NCBI GenBank assembly: GCA_021738565.1
Contig: JAIPBT010000007.1
Coordinates: 1-64,000 of the forward strand
From: Bacteroidales bacterium
GTDB lineage: Bacteria; Bacteroidota; Bacteroidia; Bacteroidales; GCA-2748055
Reading direction: 5' to 3'
DNA: 64,000 bases
Part shown: in pieces, positions 37,059 through 46,263 of the stretch
How the letters are laid out: each line of letters opens with the position of its first letter
How positions within the stretch are numbered: the stretch's first letter is position 1
Program-made: the position numbers and the translations under genes
The notes under the pieces: generated by a model
The model's input: only the letters and a program-made list of their open reading frames with translations
Told to the model about the DNA's origin: nothing
Database searches by the model: none

Positions 37059-40000
37059 ATGCTGCCTGAACTCCTCTCCATACGCAAATCCCTTAATAAG
37101 GCCTACTTAAAAGTCAAGCCCACCCGCTCGCAAATCGAAACCTTCAAATCAGGCCTTATCTCACTGTTTGGACAGGTGCAAGAGACTGAATCAGAAGAGC
37201 ATCACAAGAATATAATTGCAGAATTTCTAAAGAACACCTATTACCAACCCAATCACTACATCAATACGAAAGGAACAACTGACCTTGTAATTCACAATGG
37301 TAAAGATGCTAAAAGCACTGTTGGAGTTATCATTGAAACCAAACGACCTGGAAACAAGGCAGAAATGCCGACCAGGGAAAACATCAATTCCAAGGCGGTT
37401 CACGAACTTGTTCTGTACTACCTCAGAGAAAGAATCTCCAATAAAAACCTTGAAATTAAACATCTCATCGCCACCAATCTTTACGAGTGGTACATCTTCA
37501 ATGCACAGGAATTTGAAAAAGTATTTGCCAAAAACAGGAAACTTGTTGCTGACTTTGAAAAATTTGAAGCGGGAAGCCTTTCGGGTACAAAAACGGATTT
37601 TTTCTACAATGAAATCGCAAAACCTTTCATCGATACGCAAGCGGTCGATATTCCGGTTTCCTGGTTTGATCTCAGGGACTATGAAACCATTGTGAAAAAT
37701 GACTCGAAGGAAGATGATAAAAAGCTTATCGAGATATATAAAATCCTTTCCCCAGAGCATCAGTTGAAGCTCCCGTTTTCCAATGATAGCAATACACTTG
37801 ACAAAAAATTCTACAATGAATTGTTGCATATTATTGGTTTGGAAGAGCGGAAGGAAAAAAGTAAGAAGCTTATTGGCCGAAAGGATGAAGGGAAGAGAGA
37901 TAATGGTTCTCTAATTGAAAATGCGATCAAGATCCTGAATTATGAGGATTGTTTGAGAGATATTAAAAATCCATCTGACTATGGTGAGAGTAAAGATGAA
38001 CAATTATATCATGTTGCGCTTGAACTGTCTATTACATGGATCAACAGAATACTTTTTCTAAAGTTGCTGGAGGGCCAATTAGTTAAATATCATAATGGGG
38101 ATACTTCATACAAGTTTTTGAATTCTGAATTGATTACTGATTATGATGCTTTGAATAAACTATTCTTTCATGTGCTTGCTGTGAAAGAAAATGAAAGAGG
38201 AGATCATGTTAAAGAGAAATATAAGAAAATTCCTTATTTGAATAGTTCTTTATTTGAACCCAATGAGCTTGAGCACAGAACTATTCGCATAAGTAATCTT
38301 GAGGATGATTACACGCTGCCAATATTAAATGGTACTGTATTAAAAGACAATGTTGGAAAGAAAAGATCAGGAAAACTGAATCCACTCAATTATTTATTTG
38401 ATTTTCTGGATGCTTATGATTTTTCAAGTGAAGGAGCTGAGGATATTTCTGAAGAGAATAAGACGCTAATCAATGCATCTGTATTAGGACTTATTTTTGA
38501 AAAAATCAATGGATACAAAGACGGATCTTTCTTTACACCGGGATTCATTACGATGTACATGTGTCGTGAGACTATTCGAAGGGCCGTTGTACAAAAATTT
38601 AACGATGCCAAAGGATGGAAATGCGATAACCTGGAAGAGCTTTATAATAAGATAGATGACAAAAAAGAAGCGAATGAGATCATCAATAGTCTGAAGATCT
38701 GTGATCCGGCAGTTGGATCCGGTCACTTCCTGGTTTCTGCACTGAATGAGATCATTGCTATAAAATCTGAACTAAAAATATTGGCTGACTCCAAAGGAAA
38801 GGTATTAAGGGATTACCATGTAGAAGTTATCAATGATGAATTGGTTATTACTGATGAAGATGGAGAATTCTTTGAATATCATCCAAAGAATCCGGAAAGT
38901 CAGCGCATTCAGGAAACCTTATTCCATGAGAAGCAGACCATCATTGAAAACTGCCTGTTTGGCGTCGATATCAACCAGAATTCGGTAAAAATCTGCCGGC
39001 TCAGGCTCTGGATTGAATTATTAAAGAATGCTTATTACAGGCCAGATTCCGGTTTTACTGAACTGGAGACGTTGCCCAATATCGATATCAACATTAAATG
39101 CGGAAATTCGCTTATCAGTCGTTATCCATTGAATGCCGATATAAAATCCGCCCTTGCCAAAAGCAAATGGACCATTGACAGCTACCGGCTGGCTGTTATG
39201 TCATACCGGAATGCAGAGAATAAGGAGGAGAAGGTCGCCATGCGAAAACTGATCGAGGAGATTAAATCCGATTTCGAAAGCGAGGTTTCAAGCAAAGATA
39301 AACGGTTCCTGAGGCTCCATAAATTAAAAGGAGAATTATTCAGTCTTACGGGCCAGCACAACCTGTTTGAAATGGAAGGAAAAAAGAAGGATGACTGGGA
39401 GAAGAAGTTAAAGAAAGCTTCGGCGGAAATCGAAAAACTGGAAACCGAACTGGAGGAGATCCGTACCAACAAGATCTATGAAAATGCTTTTGAATGGCGA
39501 TTTGAATTTCCTGAAGTGTTGAATGATGAGGGGGATTTTGTGGGATTTGATGTGGTGATTGGGAATCCGCCTTATATAAGCGCTTGGGAAATGCACGAAA
39601 ATGATGAAAATCAAAGGGAAGAAATTAAAAACATCGTAAAAAACGGTGCTATTCTGACTGGTCATTGGGATTTATATATGGCTTTCATACTTCTTTCTAT
39701 TGAAATAGGAAAACCTAATTCATACAACACTTACATAATCCCAAATCCATTCTTGCGTGAGAAATATGCAGCATTATTAAGAAAACATCTACTTGATGAA
39801 ATGGAATTGATAAGTATAACACTTTTTGAAACAAGTAATGTATTTGATGAAGTCGCAAGGAGAACAATAATATATCTCTTTAAAAACGCACTAAGTGTTA
39901 AAGCTGACGTCGACATATTAGAAACAAATACAACAGAATTTAGAATTGATTTCAAAAACACTATAGACAAAAATGAATGGCGAAAATCAAGCGAATACAG

Positions 40001-40781
40001 GTTTAACACAAGTGCAGATAACAATATTTTCAGTTTGCTTGAAAAAATTGAATCACACTCTTACAGATTGGGAAATATCTGTTATGTAAACTATGGTGCA
40101 CAAGTTTCAAGCAAAATAAAAGGTGGTTTTAAGAAAAGCGAAGTAGTTGGAAAAATTGAGAAAGGAAATAGTAAAAGGTTTGTAGAAGGGAAAGATGTTC
40201 ATAGATGGGAACTTGCATATAGAAACCTTTGGCTCGACTACAGAAAGGACGAATTGTATGGTCCTCGTTTTGAAGAATTATTTGAAGCGGAGAAATTGCT
40301 GATTAGAAAAATATCAGACAAAGGACATAGAGTAGCAGCAACATTTGACGACAATGGCTATTACACAGACGATGGTTGTGTAATTGCAGCATTATTTACT
40401 TCATTAAAGAATGTGCTACCAAAGAATACTTACTTTGATTACGAAGTAACAGGACAAGAATATAAAATAAGTTTCGTATTAAGCCAGCTTCTTTCTTCTG
40501 TTACAACATTTTATTTCAAAAACAGATTTTCAACGGAAAGTTTGCAAGGAGAAACATCACATACTTATCCTAAATCAATTAGAGCATTACCAGTTATGAA
40601 CGCAAGTATTGAGCAACAAAAAGAAATAACATCAATAGCTACCAAGGTTTTAGAAATTAAAAGTCAAGATGTTAATGCAAACATCTCCGAACTTGAAAAC
40701 ATAATGGACAAATTATTTTATAGCCTTTACGGACTTAGTAAAACTGAAATTGAACTCCTTGAAAATAACATTAACAAATGA
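37059..40781 (+). CDS. Type IIG restriction-modification enzyme (single-chain endonuclease and N6-adenine methyltransferase)
   Basis: 1240 residues. The N-terminal nuclease has a PD-(D/E)xK site: Asp75 (GTTDLVI) and Glu93-x-Lys95 (VIIETKRP). A helical linker leads to the methyltransferase: SAM motif I DPAVGSGHF near residue 549, and the catalytic VIGNPPYI (Asn836). A coiled coil (KKLKKASAEIEKLETELEEI) lies at about 790. The C-terminal 380 residues are the TaqI/Eco57I-like target-recognition region (YVNYGAQVSSKIKGGFK, RFVEGKDVHRWEL, the latter typical). It both modifies and cuts its target, giving phage defence without other subunits. By eye, the recognition region (about 39,590-40,780) is more AT-rich than the rest, consistent with exchange of the recognition domain. 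Neighbours are remnants of mobile DNA. Confidence 0.88.
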   Translation: MLPELLSIRKSLNKAYLKVKPTRSQIETFKSGLISLFGQVQETESEEHHKNIIAEFLKNTYYQPNHYINTKGTTDLVIHNGKDAKSTVGVIIETKRPGNKAEMPTRENINSKAVHELVLYYLRERISNKNLEIKHLIATNLYEWYIFNAQEFEKVFAKNRKLVADFEKFEAGSLSGTKTDFFYNEIAKPFIDTQAVDIPVSWFDLRDYETIVKNDSKEDDKKLIEIYKILSPEHQLKLPFSNDSNTLDKKFYNELLHIIGLEERKEKSKKLIGRKDEGKRDNGSLIENAIKILNYEDCLRDIKNPSDYGESKDEQLYHVALELSITWINRILFLKLLEGQLVKYHNGDTSYKFLNSELITDYDALNKLFFHVLAVKENERGDHVKEKYKKIPYLNSSLFEPNELEHRTIRISNLEDDYTLPILNGTVLKDNVGKKRSGKLNPLNYLFDFLDAYDFSSEGAEDISEENKTLINASVLGLIFEKINGYKDGSFFTPGFITMYMCRETIRRAVVQKFNDAKGWKCDNLEELYNKIDDKKEANEIINSLKICDPAVGSGHFLVSALNEIIAIKSELKILADSKGKVLRDYHVEVINDELVITDEDGEFFEYHPKNPESQRIQETLFHEKQTIIENCLFGVDINQNSVKICRLRLWIELLKNAYYRPDSGFTELETLPNIDINIKCGNSLISRYPLNADIKSALAKSKWTIDSYRLAVMSYRNAENKEEKVAMRKLIEEIKSDFESEVSSKDKRFLRLHKLKGELFSLTGQHNLFEMEGKKKDDWEKKLKKASAEIEKLETELEEIRTNKIYENAFEWRFEFPEVLNDEGDFVGFDVVIGNPPYISAWEMHENDENQREEIKNIVKNGAILTGHWDLYMAFILLSIEIGKPNSYNTYIIPNPFLREKYAALLRKHLLDEMELISITLFETSNVFDEVARRTIIYLFKNALSVKADVDILETNTTEFRIDFKNTIDKNEWRKSSEYRFNTSADNNIFSLLEKIESHSYRLGNICYVNYGAQVSSKIKGGFKKSEVVGKIEKGNSKRFVEGKDVHRWELAYRNLWLDYRKDELYGPRFEELFEAEKLLIRKISDKGHRVAATFDDNGYYTDDGCVIAALFTSLKNVLPKNTYFDYEVTGQEYKISFVLSQLLSSVTTFYFKNRFSTESLQGETSHTYPKSIRALPVMNASIEQQKEITSIATKVLEIKSQDVNANISELENIMDKLFYSLYGLSKTEIELLENNINK

Positions 40782-41600: not shown

Positions 41601-42827
41601 ATGGAGAGGAGATATGAAGCATACAGGTTATCGAACGGTATCCGGTTGATACACATACAAAACGCTTCGGAAGTGGCGCATTTCGGATTGCTGGTTCATA
41701 CGGGAACAAGGGATGAAAATGAGGATGAACACGGACTGGCGCACTTCATGGAACACATGTTCTTCAAAGGAACTCCCAAACGGTCGGCCTACCAGATCAT
41801 TTCCAGGCTGGAAGATGTGGGAGGTGAGATCAATGCCTATACCTCCAAAGAGGAAACCGCGATCTATGCTTCCATTCTTAAAAATGACTTTAAAAAAGCC
41901 GTTGAACTGATCCAGGATATCTTCCTACATTCACTTTTTGCAGAAAAAGAGCGTAAAAAGGAGATCGAGGTTATCATCAGTGAAATACAGAATTATGAAG
42001 ACACACCGTCGGAACTGATCTTCGACCAGGCCGAAGAGATCCTCTTTCCCGATCACCCCATCGGAAGAAACATCCTGGGAACCAGGGAATCGCTCCATCG
42101 CTTCCGGAACGGCATGGTTGAAAGGTTCAGACAGGAAAATTACGCCACCGAAGAGATCGTTCTGTGCTCCTCAGGCAGCCTTCCCTTTTCAAAGGTCAGG
42201 AGATACGCTGAGCGCTATTTTCATGACCTTCCCCAACAGTCACGATCCAGGGAAAGACGCTCCCCTCAACCTGCCGGAAAACTACTCCACAGAATTACCC
42301 GAAACACATTCCAGACCCATTGTGTAATTTCCGGAGCCGCCTATGCATACCACCACGAAAACCGCATGGCGCTGCATTTACTGAACAACATACTCGGGGG
42401 ACCTGGCATGAATTCCCGCCTCAACATGGCCCTTCGCGAGAGGAGGGGGTTTTCCTACAGCGCCGAATCACACTACCTGCCCTATACCGACAATGGCAGT
42501 GTAAATATTTATTTCAGCAGCGATAAGGAACGTTTTCCAAAATCACTCGAAGTTACAAATGGTGAGTTGAAAAAACTCCGCACCAAACCCATTCCTGAAA
42601 AAAAATTGTCGCATGCACGCAGGCAGCTGCTCGGACAGATAGCCATATCCTCCGAAAGCAGTGAACACCTCATGCTCAGCGCTGCAAAAAGCTATCTCCT
42701 GTTCAACCGGGTAGATTCACTTACGGATATTTCAAAAAAACTTGATGCAATATCCGCGGAAAAACTGAGGGATGTTGCCAATGAAATACTTGATCCTTCA
42801 AACCTGAATACACTCGTTTACCTGTGA
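41601..42827 (+). CDS. M16 family zinc metallopeptidase (pitrilysin-like)
   Basis: About 408 residues, the usual length of a single-chain bacterial M16 protein. The inverted zinc motif HFMEH (His48, Glu51, His52) is followed about 75 residues later by the third ligand region EVIISEIQNYEDTPSELIFD. The C-terminal inactive half contains LNNILGGPGMNSRLNMALRE and GFSYSAESHYLP, the conserved substrate-binding region. No signal peptide, so probably cytoplasmic. I prefer the ATG at 41601 (MERRYEAYRLSNGIRL aligns with homologue starts) to the ATG at 41553. Its stop overlaps the next start by one base (TGATG). Confidence 0.9.
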   Translation: MERRYEAYRLSNGIRLIHIQNASEVAHFGLLVHTGTRDENEDEHGLAHFMEHMFFKGTPKRSAYQIISRLEDVGGEINAYTSKEETAIYASILKNDFKKAVELIQDIFLHSLFAEKERKKEIEVIISEIQNYEDTPSELIFDQAEEILFPDHPIGRNILGTRESLHRFRNGMVERFRQENYATEEIVLCSSGSLPFSKVRRYAERYFHDLPQQSRSRERRSPQPAGKLLHRITRNTFQTHCVISGAAYAYHHENRMALHLLNNILGGPGMNSRLNMALRERRGFSYSAESHYLPYTDNGSVNIYFSSDKERFPKSLEVTNGELKKLRTKPIPEKKLSHARRQLLGQIAISSESSEHLMLSAAKSYLLFNRVDSLTDISKKLDAISAEKLRDVANEILDPSNLNTLVYL

Positions 42828-43471
42828 TGGCATATTTTGAATTCCCCTACGATATTGAACGCTATGCCGAAGACCATACATCGGATGAGGAGACTGCCCT
42901 TTTTGAACTGTACAGGAAAACTTACCTGAATGCCGCTCACCCGCAAATGATTTCCGGGAAGGTACAGGGACAGTTTCTTTCAATGATCAGCAAAATGATC
43001 CGCCCGCAAAGGATCCTTGAGATCGGAACCTTCACTGGATATTCCGCCTATTGCCTGGCAAAAGGACTGCAGGAAAAAGGGGAACTGATCACCATTGAGG
43101 CCAATGAAGAACTCCGGGATCAGATTAACGAATTCTTTCAACAGTCGGGGTTGGATCAAAAAGCATCCCTTCTTATTGGAAATGCCCTTGAGATCATACA
43201 AGCATTCAGGGATCCATTTGATCTTATTTTTCTGGATGCCAACAAAGAGGGCTATCCTGAATATTACACTGCCTGTATTGATTTGCTGTCTGCAGGAGGA
43301 ATTTTGATCGCAGATAATGTGCTCTGGAGCGGTAAAGTGACAGACAGCAAATCAAGCGATCTGTCAACAAATAAACTACAGGAATTCAACCGGCTGGTGC
43401 AACACGACAGCCGGGTTGAAAATGTATTTCTCACCATACGTGACGGATTGTTGATGATCCGAAAGAAATAA
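42827..43471 (+). CDS. SAM-dependent O-methyltransferase (caffeoyl-CoA/COMT-like family)
   Basis: About 214 residues. SAM motif I is ILEIGTFTGYSAYCLAKGL, acidic loop ITIEANEE, and the metal-binding DLIFLDANKEGYPEYY and IADNVLWSGKV fit the cation-dependent O-methyltransferase family found widely in bacteria. The physiological acceptor (often a catechol or flavonoid-like compound) is unknown. It is translationally coupled to the M16 peptidase; this pair is common in Bacteroidota. The start is ATG 42827 rather than the GTG at 42824. Confidence 0.9.
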   Translation: MAYFEFPYDIERYAEDHTSDEETALFELYRKTYLNAAHPQMISGKVQGQFLSMISKMIRPQRILEIGTFTGYSAYCLAKGLQEKGELITIEANEELRDQINEFFQQSGLDQKASLLIGNALEIIQAFRDPFDLIFLDANKEGYPEYYTACIDLLSAGGILIADNVLWSGKVTDSKSSDLSTNKLQEFNRLVQHDSRVENVFLTIRDGLLMIRKK

Positions 43472-43472
43472 A

Positions 43473-43485
43473 TGTTTAAAAAACA
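43473..43485. promoter_or_regulatory. Palindrome TGTTTAAAAAACA upstream of the MerR gene
   Basis: TGTTT-aaa-AAACA, similar in composition to the TTTGTTAAACA sites in front of the sigma-factor gene, and about 40 bases upstream of the candidate -7 box of the MerR gene. It could be an autoregulatory operator; this is an inference from similarity only. Confidence 0.35.
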
Positions 43486-43521
43486 GTCCCCAATAATAAA
43501 CAATTTAGTCCTGTAAGTTGT

Positions 43522-43529
43522 TATTTTTG
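43522..43529 (+). promoter_or_regulatory. -7 box TATTTTTG for the CarH-like regulator
   Basis: Matches TAnnTTTG, 27 bases before the ATG at 43557. No -33 box found. Confidence 0.4.
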
Positions 43530-43556
43530 AGGAATCACAAGGAGAGGACCATCACA

Positions 43557-44444
43557 ATGGCTGTTTATTCAATCAAAGAATTAGAAAACCTTTCAGGCAT
43601 AAAAGCGCACACGATAAGGATCTGGGAAAAAAGATACAACCTTATTGAACCGCACCGCACCATAACCAACATCAGGTATTACACAGATCAGGAATTGAAA
43701 AAAATTCTGAACGTTGCGGTGCTGAACAGGCATGGTATTAAAATCTCCAACATTGCACGCCTGAGCGAAAAAGAGCTGAAAGAAGAGATCTTGCGGGTAT
43801 CAGTCAGCTACCCGAGCATGGAAAATGCCATTGATTCCATGATCATATCAATGATCGACCTGGATGAGATCAAGTTTTTGTCAACCCTCAACAAAGCCAT
43901 ATCCAAACACGGATTTACCGATGCCTTTCTCAATGTTGTTTACCCTTTTCTCGATAAGATCGGAGTACTGTGGCTGGCAGGAGATGTAAATCCTGCCCAG
44001 GAACATTTTGTGTCCAACCTTGTAAGGCAGAAGATCATTTCCGCGATCGACGGTTTTTCACATGTATTTAATCCCAATGCAGAAAAGTTTCTTCTGTTCC
44101 TTCCCGAAGGTGAATGGCACGAAATTGGACTCCTGTTCTCATTGTACCTGCTGAAGGAAAAAGGGCATGACGTGATCTATCTCGGACAGTCGGTTCCCTA
44201 TTCAGACATCCTGGCAACCGGCGCTTCACGACATTTTGACCACATCATGGTCTCCTCCACCATACCGCAACCTGAATTTGACTTTGTAACCTACCTTCAG
44301 GACCTTGGCGGTGCATTCCCTGATAAAAACATTCTCTATTTCTCTGCTTACATGGAGAAGGATGCAGAATTCTTTGGGAAAAACTACCAAAAGATAAAGC
44401 ATATAAAGGACTTCAAAGTTTACCTCAAAAAACTTGAAGCATAG
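43557..44444 (+). CDS. MerR-type regulator with B12-binding domain (CarH/LitR-like)
   Basis: 295 residues from the ATG at 43557, which has an unusually good Shine-Dalgarno (GGAGAGG) 6-12 bases upstream; the TTG at 43518 is not needed. N-terminal MerR winged helix (YSIKELENLSGIKAHTIRIW, residues 3-70), then a helical cap with W139-x9-E149-H150 (WLAGDVNPAQEH), the exact Wx9EH pattern that marks adenosylcobalamin-sensing CarH photoreceptors, and a B12 domain with the ligand motif E186-W-H188-E-I-G191. Such proteins repress promoters in the dark as AdoCbl-bound tetramers and release DNA in light. It is followed by an ECF sigma factor, with repeated TTTGTTAAACA sites between them. Confidence 0.88.
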   Translation: MAVYSIKELENLSGIKAHTIRIWEKRYNLIEPHRTITNIRYYTDQELKKILNVAVLNRHGIKISNIARLSEKELKEEILRVSVSYPSMENAIDSMIISMIDLDEIKFLSTLNKAISKHGFTDAFLNVVYPFLDKIGVLWLAGDVNPAQEHFVSNLVRQKIISAIDGFSHVFNPNAEKFLLFLPEGEWHEIGLLFSLYLLKEKGHDVIYLGQSVPYSDILATGASRHFDHIMVSSTIPQPEFDFVTYLQDLGGAFPDKNILYFSAYMEKDAEFFGKNYQKIKHIKDFKVYLKKLEA

Positions 44445-44478
44445 CTTCCATTCAATAAAATAAGACCCCCTTCGACCT

Positions 44479-44495
44479 GTTTTGTTAAACAAAAC
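44479..44495. promoter_or_regulatory. Palindrome GTTTTGTTAAACAAAAC between regulator and sigma-factor genes
   Basis: Perfect 8-bp arms around one base. Its core TTTGTTAAACA (44481-44491) recurs exactly at 44669-44679 over the sigma-factor promoter. It may be a regulator binding site, or, since it follows the MerR stop by about 35 bases and is trailed by a T-rich stretch, a weak terminator. Confidence 0.5.
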
Positions 44496-44640
44496 CTCCT
44501 TTTCTTTAAACGTTTGCTTTTATTTATACAATTTATATTGTAAAAGATTTTTATCTCCCTTTTTCCTTTATTAACAAGGGTTTCAAAAATGTTGTTTATT
44601 TAGAATTGATTATGTATTAATATCTTATGTATTGTTATCA

Positions 44641-44679
44641 TTTGGAATGTGTTCAATTTTTTTGTATGTTTGTTAAACA
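44641..44679 (+). promoter_or_regulatory. Promoter of the ECF sigma gene with overlapping TTTGTTAAACA site
   Basis: -33 TTTG (44641-44644) and -7 TATGTTTG (44665-44672), 20 bases apart, the best Bacteroidota-type promoter in the window. The -7 box runs into TTTGTTAAACA (44669-44679), identical to the core of the palindrome at 44479-44495. A regulator bound there would block the promoter. The start codon is at 44714. Confidence 0.7.
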
Positions 44680-44713
44680 TTTAGATTGATAACCCCTTAA
44701 AGCAATAGATATT

Positions 44714-45220
44714 ATGACAACAATGGAATTCAATACAAAGCTGATCAACATGGAAGATCGACTGGAGAGATTTGCCTTAAGCCTGACATCCGACAGGGAA
44801 GCGGCAAAGGACCTGCTTCAGGAAACCTATGTAAAAGCATTGTCTTCGAAGGACAAGTTCATTGAATTTACAAACTTCGAAGCATGGGCGTATACCATAA
44901 TGAAGAACACCTTTATAAATAATTACAGGAAAGCGGTAAGGCAAAAAACCATCGTTGATCAAACAGAGGACCTGTATTATCTGAACAATTCAAAGGAGGA
45001 AAAAAGTACCAAACCGGATTCCGATTACCAGCTCAAGGAGATCCACAAACATATTGACGCGTTGCAGGATGAATTGAAAATCCCTTTCCTGATGCATACG
45101 GAGGGATACAAATACAAAGAGATTGCGGAAGGTCTGAATTTAAAGATTGGGACCGTGAAAAGCCGGATTTTCTTCACAAGGAAGAAACTGATGGAATCCC
45201 TCAAAGATTATGCAAACTAA
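44714..45220 (+). CDS. ECF-type RNA polymerase sigma factor
   Basis: 168 residues. Sigma region 2 (about 12-80) includes LTSDREAAKDLLQETYVKAL and FEAWAYTIMKNTFINNYRK; region 4 (about 108-162) includes PFLMHTEGYKYKEIAEGLN and IGTVKSRIFFTRKKL. There is no anti-sigma gene next to it. Its promoter carries the TTTGTTAAACA element shared with the upstream CarH-like gene region, so it is probably controlled by that regulator, passing a light or B12 signal to its own regulon. In other Bacteroidota such pairs stand beside carotenoid genes; none are present here. A strong terminator follows. Confidence 0.9.
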   Translation: MTTMEFNTKLINMEDRLERFALSLTSDREAAKDLLQETYVKALSSKDKFIEFTNFEAWAYTIMKNTFINNYRKAVRQKTIVDQTEDLYYLNNSKEEKSTKPDSDYQLKEIHKHIDALQDELKIPFLMHTEGYKYKEIAEGLNLKIGTVKSRIFFTRKKLMESLKDYAN

Positions 45221-45270
45221 TAAGTTTTTTCATGTAGCACATGTATATAGATTGGTAGTAGTAAAGTGAA

Positions 45271-45309
45271 AGAGGGGCTGTGTCAAAAATATTTTTGACA
45301 CAGCCTCTT
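45271..45309. terminator. Bidirectional terminator hairpin
   Basis: GGCTGTGTCAAAAAT (45276-45290) pairs perfectly with 45291-45305, extended by AGAG/CTCT with wobble pairs. A T-rich tail follows on the plus strand and CTCTTTC on the minus strand. It separates the converging sigma-factor and epimerase genes. Confidence 0.8.
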
Positions 45310-45312
45310 ATT

Positions 45313-45999
45313 TTATACCACTTCAATGATCTGATCACGGTAAAATCCAAGTGACGTATAATCTATTTTATTTCTCAGGTAGACCTCCTGGGGGATCCCC
45401 ACATCTGCAATGAAGAGCCGGTACTCATCAATGTGGTTAAGCAGGATCGTTTTCGGAGCCGCAACAGTCAACACCTTATCTGTCTTGAAACGTACACTGC
45501 CCTGCTCATCACAAATCCCTGTGGGTATGTCAAGGGATATTTTCGCTGACCTCATGGTATTCATGATGCTTATCAGCTCTGATATATCTTCCGGGAGGGG
45601 AAGCCGCTGGCTGAATCCAAAGAAGCAATCAAGCACGAGGTCATATTCAGATTCAATGGTTTTTTCAACGCCGTATGCGATGGTACGCTTCAGTTGTTCT
45701 CTGATCATTGGATGGTTTGTTGCGATCGGCATCTGAATATGTACCTTATATCCCCAGGCTTCCAGTCTGCGTGCGGCCACGAGTCCTCCCCCTCCGTTGT
45801 TTCCCGGACCCACACCCACCAGCACTTTCGAGCCGGGATGTACCACGGTTGCAGATAATCTTGCAAGCTGTAATCCCGCGCTTTCCATCATAAGCTCCAC
45901 CGGCAGGTGGTAATTATTTACCGCGTAATAATCCATCTCCCTGAATGCTTCCAGGGAAAGGGTTCTTATTTTCGAAGCTTCTACTTTTGGGAATGACAT
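45313..45999 (-). CDS. NAD(P)H-hydrate epimerase domain protein (YjeF-N/AIBP-like), stand-alone
   Basis: About 228 residues from the ATG at 45999 (MSFPKVEASKIRTLSLEAFR); an ATG at 46059 exists but adds an unlikely stretch. Features: MMESAG helix, VGVGPGNNGGGGLVAARRL and SLDIPTGICDEQG. The family repairs damaged NAD(P)HX by epimerisation. Two oddities: the usual GNNGGDG here is GNNGGGG, losing the loop Asp, and the ADP-dependent dehydratase half fused in most bacterial homologues is absent. It may be a variant of altered function. Shares the hairpin at 45271 with the sigma gene. Confidence 0.8.
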   Translation of the reverse strand: MSFPKVEASKIRTLSLEAFREMDYYAVNNYHLPVELMMESAGLQLARLSATVVHPGSKVLVGVGPGNNGGGGLVAARRLEAWGYKVHIQMPIATNHPMIREQLKRTIAYGVEKTIESEYDLVLDCFFGFSQRLPLPEDISELISIMNTMRSAKISLDIPTGICDEQGSVRFKTDKVLTVAAPKTILLNHIDEYRLFIADVGIPQEVYLRNKIDYTSLGFYRDQIIEVV

Positions 46000-46101
46000 A
46001 ATCAACTTGTTTTGGCCGAATATAAGAAAAAAAATTACTGTTTGATGGCTTAATGGCAAGGTTACACTGAGAACCGCTGAGAATAAAGAGGTTTACAGAG
46101 G

Positions 46102-46136
46102 GGTTGCTGGTTGCTGGTTGCTGGTTACTGGTTACT
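46102..46136. repeat. Tandem repeat, five units of GGTTRCT
   Basis: Three GGTTGCT and two GGTTACT units in a row (7 bp each) in non-coding DNA. Confidence 0.85.
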
Positions 46137-46263
46137 TCGACATTCTATATTCGATATTCGCTCTGGCTCCCGGCCTTTGGCCCCTGGCTCCTGGCCCCTG
46201 GCTTCAATTGTGTTGCGGTATCTTTAATACTATACAGCCAATTCCGTTGATCATTTACTGCCT

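Follow-up and report, generated by a model that had tools for sequence, protein, structure and literature searches.

Introduction

The closest described relatives of the system analyzed here are CarH of Thermus thermophilus (PDB 5c8d, 5c8e) and the LitR–LitS pair of Streptomyces. The system in question consists of a gene for a CarH-like MerR-family regulator and, downstream of it, a gene for an extracytoplasmic function (ECF) sigma factor, located in a 64,000-nucleotide stretch of DNA (hereafter, the window) from contig JAIPBT010000007.1 of a Bacteroidales bacterium (assembly GCA_021738565.1). We conclude that this regulatory unit is conserved and belongs to a known kind, of which it is a variant in operator design and regulon. 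Sequence comparison makes it probable that it is a CarH/LitR-like dark repressor dependent on adenosylcobalamin (AdoCbl), with a sigma-factor relay and with the carotenoid (crt) genes under its operator. In the literature searched, no characterised operator was found for CarH-like regulators of Bacteroidota, for which the present analysis offers a sharp, testable prediction.

Thermus CarH shares with the regulator of the window a MerR helix-turn-helix (HTH) domain, a helical bundle and a Rossmann cobalamin (B12)-binding domain, as well as the W-x9-EH and axial-histidine motifs and a tie to carotenoid genes, and it is its best structural match. However, identity over the structure alignment is about 22%, and a leucine takes the place of His132. 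Regarding DNA recognition, 11-bp direct repeats are used by the CarH proteins of Thermus and Bacillus (PMC8156234, PMC9304148; here and below, statements on described systems follow passages of the articles cited), and the TnnACA of the CarH repeat is contained in the half-site TTAAACA of the operator TGTTTAA-N16-TTAAACA described below (PMC9304148).

In Streptomyces, a B12-based MerR regulator is likewise placed over a sigma factor, and LitS drives a carotenoid promoter (PMC12705666); by analogy, this pair would be the nearest worked example, although in the present case the crt genes are unlinked and themselves carry the predicted operator of the regulator. The Echinicola cluster merR-rpoE-crtI-crtB, known at the level of annotation (PMC8683446), also groups regulator, sigma factor and crt genes within the Bacteroidota, whereas here the pair and the crt cluster are found on different contigs. 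The class II LitR proteins of Pseudomonas (PplR1/PmlR2) are dark repressors with a paired-site operator and a light-inducible regulon, but their operator is TGTACA-N12-TGTACA instead of TGTTTAA-N16-TTAAACA, and the source implies that they do not bind B12 (PMC9758184), in contrast to the B12 residues present here. Finally, CtMerR of Chloracidobacterium (8JBS/8JBT) has a light-responsive B12 domain without histidine at the His132 position (PMC11796333), although its identity to the regulator is 19%.

The Regulator and Its Pairing with a Sigma Factor

An earlier model-made reading of the letters and open reading frames (hereafter, the sequence-only reading) had proposed a CarH-type B12 regulator followed by an ECF sigma factor, and both genes were confirmed by Pfam and by sequence. 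The regulator shows the class I LitR/CarH architecture, formed by MerR HTH, helical bundle and Rossmann B12 domain; the Pfam score of the last of these (25.2 bits) lies below the cut-off of 32.1, and the fold is clear all the same. Its closest solved structures by sequence are those of Thermus CarH (E about 5e-19). An AlphaFold2 model built from 32 sequences reached a mean predicted local distance difference test (pLDDT) of 89 and a predicted template modelling (pTM) score of 0.82, and the first twelve Foldseek matches of this model were full-length Thermus CarH, with and without DNA (best E 1.9e-14). In the VIA comparison of its B12 part, the first row was CtMerR (Z 18.2, 218 residues, root-mean-square deviation 3.1), tied with photocobilins and CarH at Z of about 17–18, rows within Z 1 being counted as ties.

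Light-responsive cobalamin domains carry the signatures GxxW, EH, GxxH, and GxxxP (PMC11796333), and all four were found in the regulator (G136/W139, E149/H150, G185/H188, and G210/P214). These include the W139-x9-E149-H150 motif and the axial H188 on which the sequence-only reading had relied, and both stood. Among 48 homologues, the tryptophan and the glutamate were present in all (48/48 each), and the EH histidine and the axial histidine in 45 each. Domains, fold and signatures thus support a regulator of the CarH type. In the strict sense of Thermus-type CarH, the system lacks both His132 and the tandem 11-bp direct repeats, and the CarH equivalog NF052513 scored 91.8 bits, under the required 400, yet it was the best NCBIfam model for the protein.

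Strong matches to the regulator were detected in 26 of 61 genomes, including that of the window (genomes, contigs and loci of the comparison bear the prefixes G, C and L, G000 being the genome of the window), and in 20 of these 26 loci, with 1.5 kb examined on each side, a homologue of the sigma gene followed downstream on the same strand. Related loci with names belong mostly to metagenome-assembled genomes (MAGs) of Bacteroidales and other Bacteroidota; in the set L039–L069 (n = 31, its genomes partly shared with the 26-locus set), the sigma homologue was located downstream in 16. More distant relatives of the regulator (26–28% identity) appeared in Nitrospira MAGs (L070–L074), with a homologue of the sigma gene in none of these loci.

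A 30-bp Inverted Repeat as the Predicted Operator

When the regulator–sigma gaps were aligned side by side, the conserved site proved to be a 30-bp inverted repeat, TGTTTAA-N16-TTAAACA. The comparison included the 27 gaps of those aligned loci that held a sigma gene. With up to two mismatches, the N16 repeat was present in 23 of them, against a maximum of 7 for any other spacing between 0 and 30 and 0.3 for shuffles; with up to one mismatch, it was present in 21, whereas none of 59 scrambled half-sites reached more than 2, the operator having been refined on the same loci that were used for these statistics. Over 21 regulator-bearing genomes, 115 matches with up to one mismatch were found versus 50 for the reversed control (summed from the table of scans), and in the genome of the window there were three such sites, two of them next to the regulator and the third within a gene. 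A set of 56 distinct operators showed strong conservation in the half-sites and a weak A/T preference at their edges. This set was drawn from 49 loci (L009–L034 and L047–L069), dropping repeated identical sites and those without 50 bases of context and excluding L039–L046, whose genomes were already represented.

The sequence-only reading had proposed as the site an 11-mer, TTTGTTAAACA, present twice in the 269-bp gap between the two genes (44481–44491 and 44669–44679), once within the 17-bp palindrome GTTTTGTTAAACAAAAC and once overlapping the −7 box TATGTTTG of the sigma promoter. All of this was found as described, but with nine copies in the genome versus seven for the reversed control, the 11-mer is superseded as a site by the 30-bp repeat, being its right half plus part of the −7 box. 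Similarly, the 13-bp palindrome TGTTTAAAAAACA found before the regulator gene did not hold as a unit, its second half not being kept in relatives.

Three copies of the repeat are placed around the pair (Table 1): one before the regulator gene, a weaker one (O2) just after it, and one (O1) over the sigma promoter. For the latter, we take TTTG and TAnnTTTG to be −33 and −7 boxes of the Bacteroidota type. Along the 27 gaps, TAnnTTTG started at +15 relative to O1 in 12, at +14 in 1, at +3–4 in 4, and at −6 in 1; the box was not found in 5, and O1 was not placed in 4, two of them with a too-early start call (L019, L069) and the other two without a site (L032, L034). Because N16 is constant while the −7 register shifts, a role in protein binding is more likely for the repeat than one as a promoter element. 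Regarding O2, it was found 165–168 bp upstream of O1 in 7 of the 27 gaps, two of them at 3 mismatches, and at 167 bp in an eighth (L019); the distance was 153 bp in three other loci (L025, L047, and L048). Looping between the two operators (44483–44679) is possible.

The operator also precedes the regulator genes of L054, L055, L061, L058, and L065–L068, where no such sigma gene was found; L065–L068 are four closely alike Chitinophaga loci in which it overlaps the start region, and the contig of L058 ends soon after. In addition, it stands before a sigma gene located 3.4 kb from the regulator in G005, and G057 has it before an ECF sigma gene on a contig (C45) other than that of the regulator. 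Since it occurs before regulators with no such sigma gene found in the locus as well as before unlinked sigma genes, TGTTTAA-N16-TTAAACA is most simply the predicted site of the regulator. Its position and conservation point to an ECF sigma factor under a B12 regulator, as LitS is. With a CarH-type regulator, an operator on the sigma promoter and a further site before the regulator's own gene, the dark-repressed, light-induced sigma factor suggested by the sequence-only reading is plausible, on sequence comparison only.

The Operator at Carotenoid Genes

The sequence-only reading had seen no carotenoid genes next to the pair and deduced from this a regulon located elsewhere and perhaps new. 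In the window, no carotenoid genes adjoin the pair indeed, but the genome encodes a phytoene synthase (PF00494, E 1.2e-44) on another contig, within a cluster (L091) of crtI, crtB, and a lycopene cyclase gene with divergent crtD-like and cruF-like genes. Between crtD and crtI, in their shared promoter, lies TGTTTAACTTTTGCTTTTCATAACTGAACA (G000 C20:18192–18221), a copy of the operator with two mismatches. The unlinked cluster thus carries the same operator, and a new regulon free of carotenoid genes is rejected for this genome. We credit this site because of its position and its recurrence in two congeners (G002 and G003); when 59 scrambled half-sites were searched in the crt spacers of G000, G002, and G003, one matched one of the three spacers and none matched more. 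The crtD-like gene of L091 (9907–10161, minus strand) encodes 84 aa, only the N- and C-terminal parts, versus 491 aa in G002, as a consequence of internal loss or of an assembly artefact.

Across the crt loci compared, those of regulator-positive genomes had an operator with up to two mismatches before a crt gene in 9 of 14 cases, versus none of 5 for genomes that gave no strong match to the regulator (G033, G036, G041, G049, and G056, crtI itself not being located in G033 and G036; one-sided Fisher test, 0.022, computed by hand). In family members in which no regulator was found, 2 of 3 had the crt operator (G006 and G014; not G025). In G007 and G011, the operator is closer to the divergent cruF-like gene. 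Moreover, the genes are contiguous in some loci, in the order regulator–sigma–crtI–crtB in L053 (Aquiflexum) and L069, and regulator–crtI–crtB in L061. The site at the crt promoter of G000 and the 9 of 14 loci suggest that the regulator is tied to light-inducible, mostly carotenoid, genes, as class I LitR/CarH proteins are.

A regulon free of carotenoid genes may nevertheless suit some relatives: no PF00494 match was found in 8 of the 26 regulator-positive genomes (G001, G005, G010, G012, G016, G020, G021, and G059), and in a further four of them (G004, G015, G027, and G048) only weaker ones were found. The eight include the nearly complete G012 (97%), G016 (96%), and G020 (97%). In these three, operator matches with up to one mismatch away from the sigma gene lie inside genes or at their ends, with a possible exception in G020 (C94:3408), about 20 bp before the likely start of a small exported protein. 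Given this position, it may be mainly through the sigma factor that the switch acts in G012, G016, and G020.

Further Genes Preceded by the Operator

A cobalamin adenosyltransferase is encoded in the genome of the window (PF01923, E 3.5e-52), which provides for the making of AdoCbl. In three of the four congeners, an operator starts 92–153 bp before the adenosyltransferase domain match: in G000 (C19:31253; N17, no mismatch), G003 (N17, one mismatch), and G002 (N16, one mismatch). A full operator was sought at this gene of the remaining genus member, G001, and not found. At up to one mismatch, it was present at the adenosyltransferase gene in none of 20 other genomes, 8 of them with the regulator, and G032 showed one N14 site with two mismatches. 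None of the 59 scrambled half-sites matched in the three upstream regions. The spacing-relaxed pattern was chosen after the adenosyltransferase site had been seen. Two other matches to it in the genome of the window, C5:11487 (N18) and C80:103348 (N19), were taken as chance; a glycosyltransferase-like gene, so named by eye, is close to one of them, and the other lies within a gene.

The adenosyltransferase has been named the likely recycler of spent CarH cofactor (PMC4557120), and a strain without pduO has been used as a tool (PMC9304148); passages of four articles dealing with both CarH and the enzyme, these two included, contain no account of CarH control over the adenosyltransferase gene. 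Tentatively, and with rather more doubt than assurance, we suggest that the gene for ATP:cob(I)alamin adenosyltransferase has acquired the operator in this genus, so that the photoreceptor governs the supply of its own chromophore. In the dark, the AdoCbl-loaded repressor would limit AdoCbl synthesis, and light, in destroying AdoCbl, would switch its remaking on alongside the pigment genes. If true, this would be a negative feedback setting the sensitivity of the switch and coupling light to B12 metabolism, it would turn the recycling idea of PMC4557120 into a feedback loop, and the protein behind it would be CarH-like, with no bis-His light state and with inverted half-sites as its operator.

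Genes for secreted fasciclin-domain proteins are another candidate target in relatives, with an operator (up to two mismatches) at 9 of the 13 loci examined; 6 of the 9 were encountered through the operator search itself, and the count leaves out a high-scoring gene at a contig start in G017. The four loci without it are those of G011 (contig end) and of G018, G041, and G042 (no strong regulator match). In L124 (G007 C56:1–4500), the operator precedes a secreted multi-fasciclin gene, with DUF2177 and NmrA/DUF2867 genes behind it. For the genome of the window, fasciclin genes were rejected as a target: its 17 matches (best 2.4e-22) include no gene as high-scoring as those of the relatives, and none has any of the three operators of up to one mismatch. 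Photolyase was rejected too, as no PF03441 match was detected in this genome, and the operator (up to two mismatches) was absent from the two regions examined (L229 and L230) of the nine genomes with a match.

Assessment of the Regulatory Model

According to the model that we favor, in the dark the AdoCbl-loaded regulator would bind TGTTTAA-N16-TTAAACA, whose inverted half-sites lie on promoter elements, and would repress its own gene, the ECF sigma gene, and the unlinked divergent promoter of crtI-crtB-lycopene cyclase and crtD-cruF. In the light, breakage of the Co-C bond would make it release the DNA, and these promoters would be expressed, the pigment genes being induced directly and, probably, via the sigma factor as well. 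Domain make-up, ligand residues, operator, promoter placement, and the ties to regulator and crt genes all speak for this model. It would indicate the likely control point of the pigment genes of this genome, and targets beyond pigments, namely the enzyme that makes AdoCbl, secreted fasciclin proteins, and sigma-driven genes in relatives in which no phytoene synthase was found. The novelty would lie in how the operator is built in this group, in its recruitment to the adenosyltransferase gene, and in the existence of relatives with the pair and no phytoene synthase found.

In it, DNA binding, the dependence on AdoCbl and light, the sign of regulation and the sigma targets are inferred. Several observations weigh against this model. 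Leu140 of the regulator occupies the position of Thermus His132, and none of the 48 homologues has histidine there (Q in 29, L in 10, M in 4, S in 3, A in 1, and V in 1). In Thermus, His132 ligates cobalt in the light state and the H132A protein is unable to monomerise in light, and other light-responsive proteins have R, Q, or Y at this position (PMC11796333); therefore, the light step of the regulator may differ from that of Thermus CarH. The operator is an inverted pair with a centre spacing of 23 bp, in contrast to the tandem 11-bp direct repeats of Thermus; with the TnnACA core kept within TTAAACA, the half-site contact may have been retained while the orientation of the repeats changed from direct to inverted. 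The crt site of G000 has two mismatches, a level without genome-wide excess (42 matches versus 45 for the control), and its conservation in congeners extends beyond the half-sites to part of the spacer, TTTGCTTT. The N16 operator was not found at up to two mismatches in 4 of the 27 gaps, nor was any crt operator in 5 of the 14 regulator-positive loci (G009, G046, G055, G058, and G043, the last with its promoter side cut), and the sigma gene was not found in 6 of the 26 regulator loci, of which L031 ends there at a contig edge. Finally, the pair occurs with a perfect operator, and with no phytoene synthase found, in L042 (which, equal in length, is probably G012 C236); the name of its MAG points to sediment of the Guaymas Basin, a dark place where a light sensor would be odd.

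This last relative fits better with a switch that senses AdoCbl supply and adjusts metabolism through the sigma factor, light being incidental. The operator before the adenosyltransferase gene in three of four congeners, the lack of histidine at the His132 position and the pair in the near-complete G012, G016, and G020 also favor such a switch. Nevertheless, all four light signatures are present, and position 132 varies in domains that do respond to light (PMC11796333). As the crt genes are in addition the most widespread unlinked target observed, we consider a sensor of B12 status unlikely, though the strongest competitor of the dark repressor. MerR proteins are often activators, and the regulator could turn the sigma promoter on in the light, beyond lifting repression. 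Light-activated LitR does promote litS transcription in Streptomyces (PMC12705666). However, O1 covers the −7 box, and the variable register between both suits steric repression better than the fixed geometry of MerR activation, so that activation seems somewhat less probable still.

The repeat itself could be read otherwise. A 16-bp spacer is typical of ECF promoters, and TGTTTAA-N16-TTAAACA, found upstream of the sigma gene, could be the −35/−10 promoter of the ECF factor itself and no repressor operator at all. We regard this as improbable, as the repeat is palindromic, stands before regulators with no such sigma gene found in the locus, and shifts its register on the TAnnTTTG boxes. That nothing more than chance in A+T-rich sequence is involved, with no regulatory unit, would agree with the 11-mer not being enriched in the genome and with two-mismatch operator counts at control level; this can be given hardly any credence in view of the presence of the repeat in 21 of 27 gaps, where scrambled half-sites never exceeded 2, and of the 115 versus 50 matches at up to one mismatch over 21 genomes. 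The AdoCbl-dependent dark repressor therefore continues to be the explanation that we prefer.

Features of the Locus and Its Surroundings

The genome of the window comprises 3.98 Mb in 83 contigs and is 98.5% complete, and the window belongs to contig C74. The features of the locus are listed in Table 1.

Table 1. Genes and predicted regulatory elements of the regulator–sigma locus (positions in the window).
Feature	Position	Strand	Evidence
Regulator-gene operator, TGTTTAA-N16-ATAAACA, 1 mismatch; candidate autoregulation	43473..43502	.	Gap alignment, genome scan
Candidate −7 box TATTTTTG of the regulator promoter, just downstream of the regulator's operator	43522..43529	+	Sequence; weak
CarH-like MerR-family regulator, 295 aa	43557..44444	+	Pfam MerR_1, B12-binding_2, B12-binding; PDB relatives; AlphaFold/Foldseek; light-signature motifs
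17-bp palindrome GTTTTGTTAAACAAAAC, overlapping the left half of O2	44479..44495	.	Sequence
Weaker predicted operator O2, 2 mismatches, just 3' of the regulator stop	44483..44512	.	Gap statistics
Second conserved block TATTnnnAAG..TTATTTrGAA, upstream of the sigma gene	44569..44605	+	Gap alignment, genome scan
Candidate −33 box TTTG, sigma promoter	44641..44644	+	Sequence; box type assumed
Predicted operator O1 over the sigma-gene promoter, TGTTCAA-N16-TTAAACA, 1 mismatch; from the −33/−7 spacer across the −7 box	44650..44679	.	Alignments, genome scan
−7 box TATGTTTG (TAnnTTTG), sigma promoter	44665..44672	+	Sequence, gap comparison; box type assumed
ECF sigma factor, 168 aa	44714..45220	+	Pfam Sigma70_r2, r4_2; pairing with the regulator

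The second conserved block occurs without mismatches only at this locus in the genome of the window, and is possibly a second promoter or the site of another regulator. As a motif for a sigma regulon it was rejected: over 28 genomes, it gave three mismatch-free matches, all at sigma loci, and most of the other matches were background-like; a shared promoter motif for the sigma factor was not found. No Rfam matches were detected across 42800–46200. On the 5' side, the pair is neighbored by O-methyltransferase and M16 peptidase genes, and on the 3' side by a YjeF_N gene on the opposite strand. Further upstream, at 37059–40781, the window includes a gene for a 1240-aa Eco57I-type methylase with DUF7149, DUF7814, and TaqI_C domains, of the restriction-modification kind.

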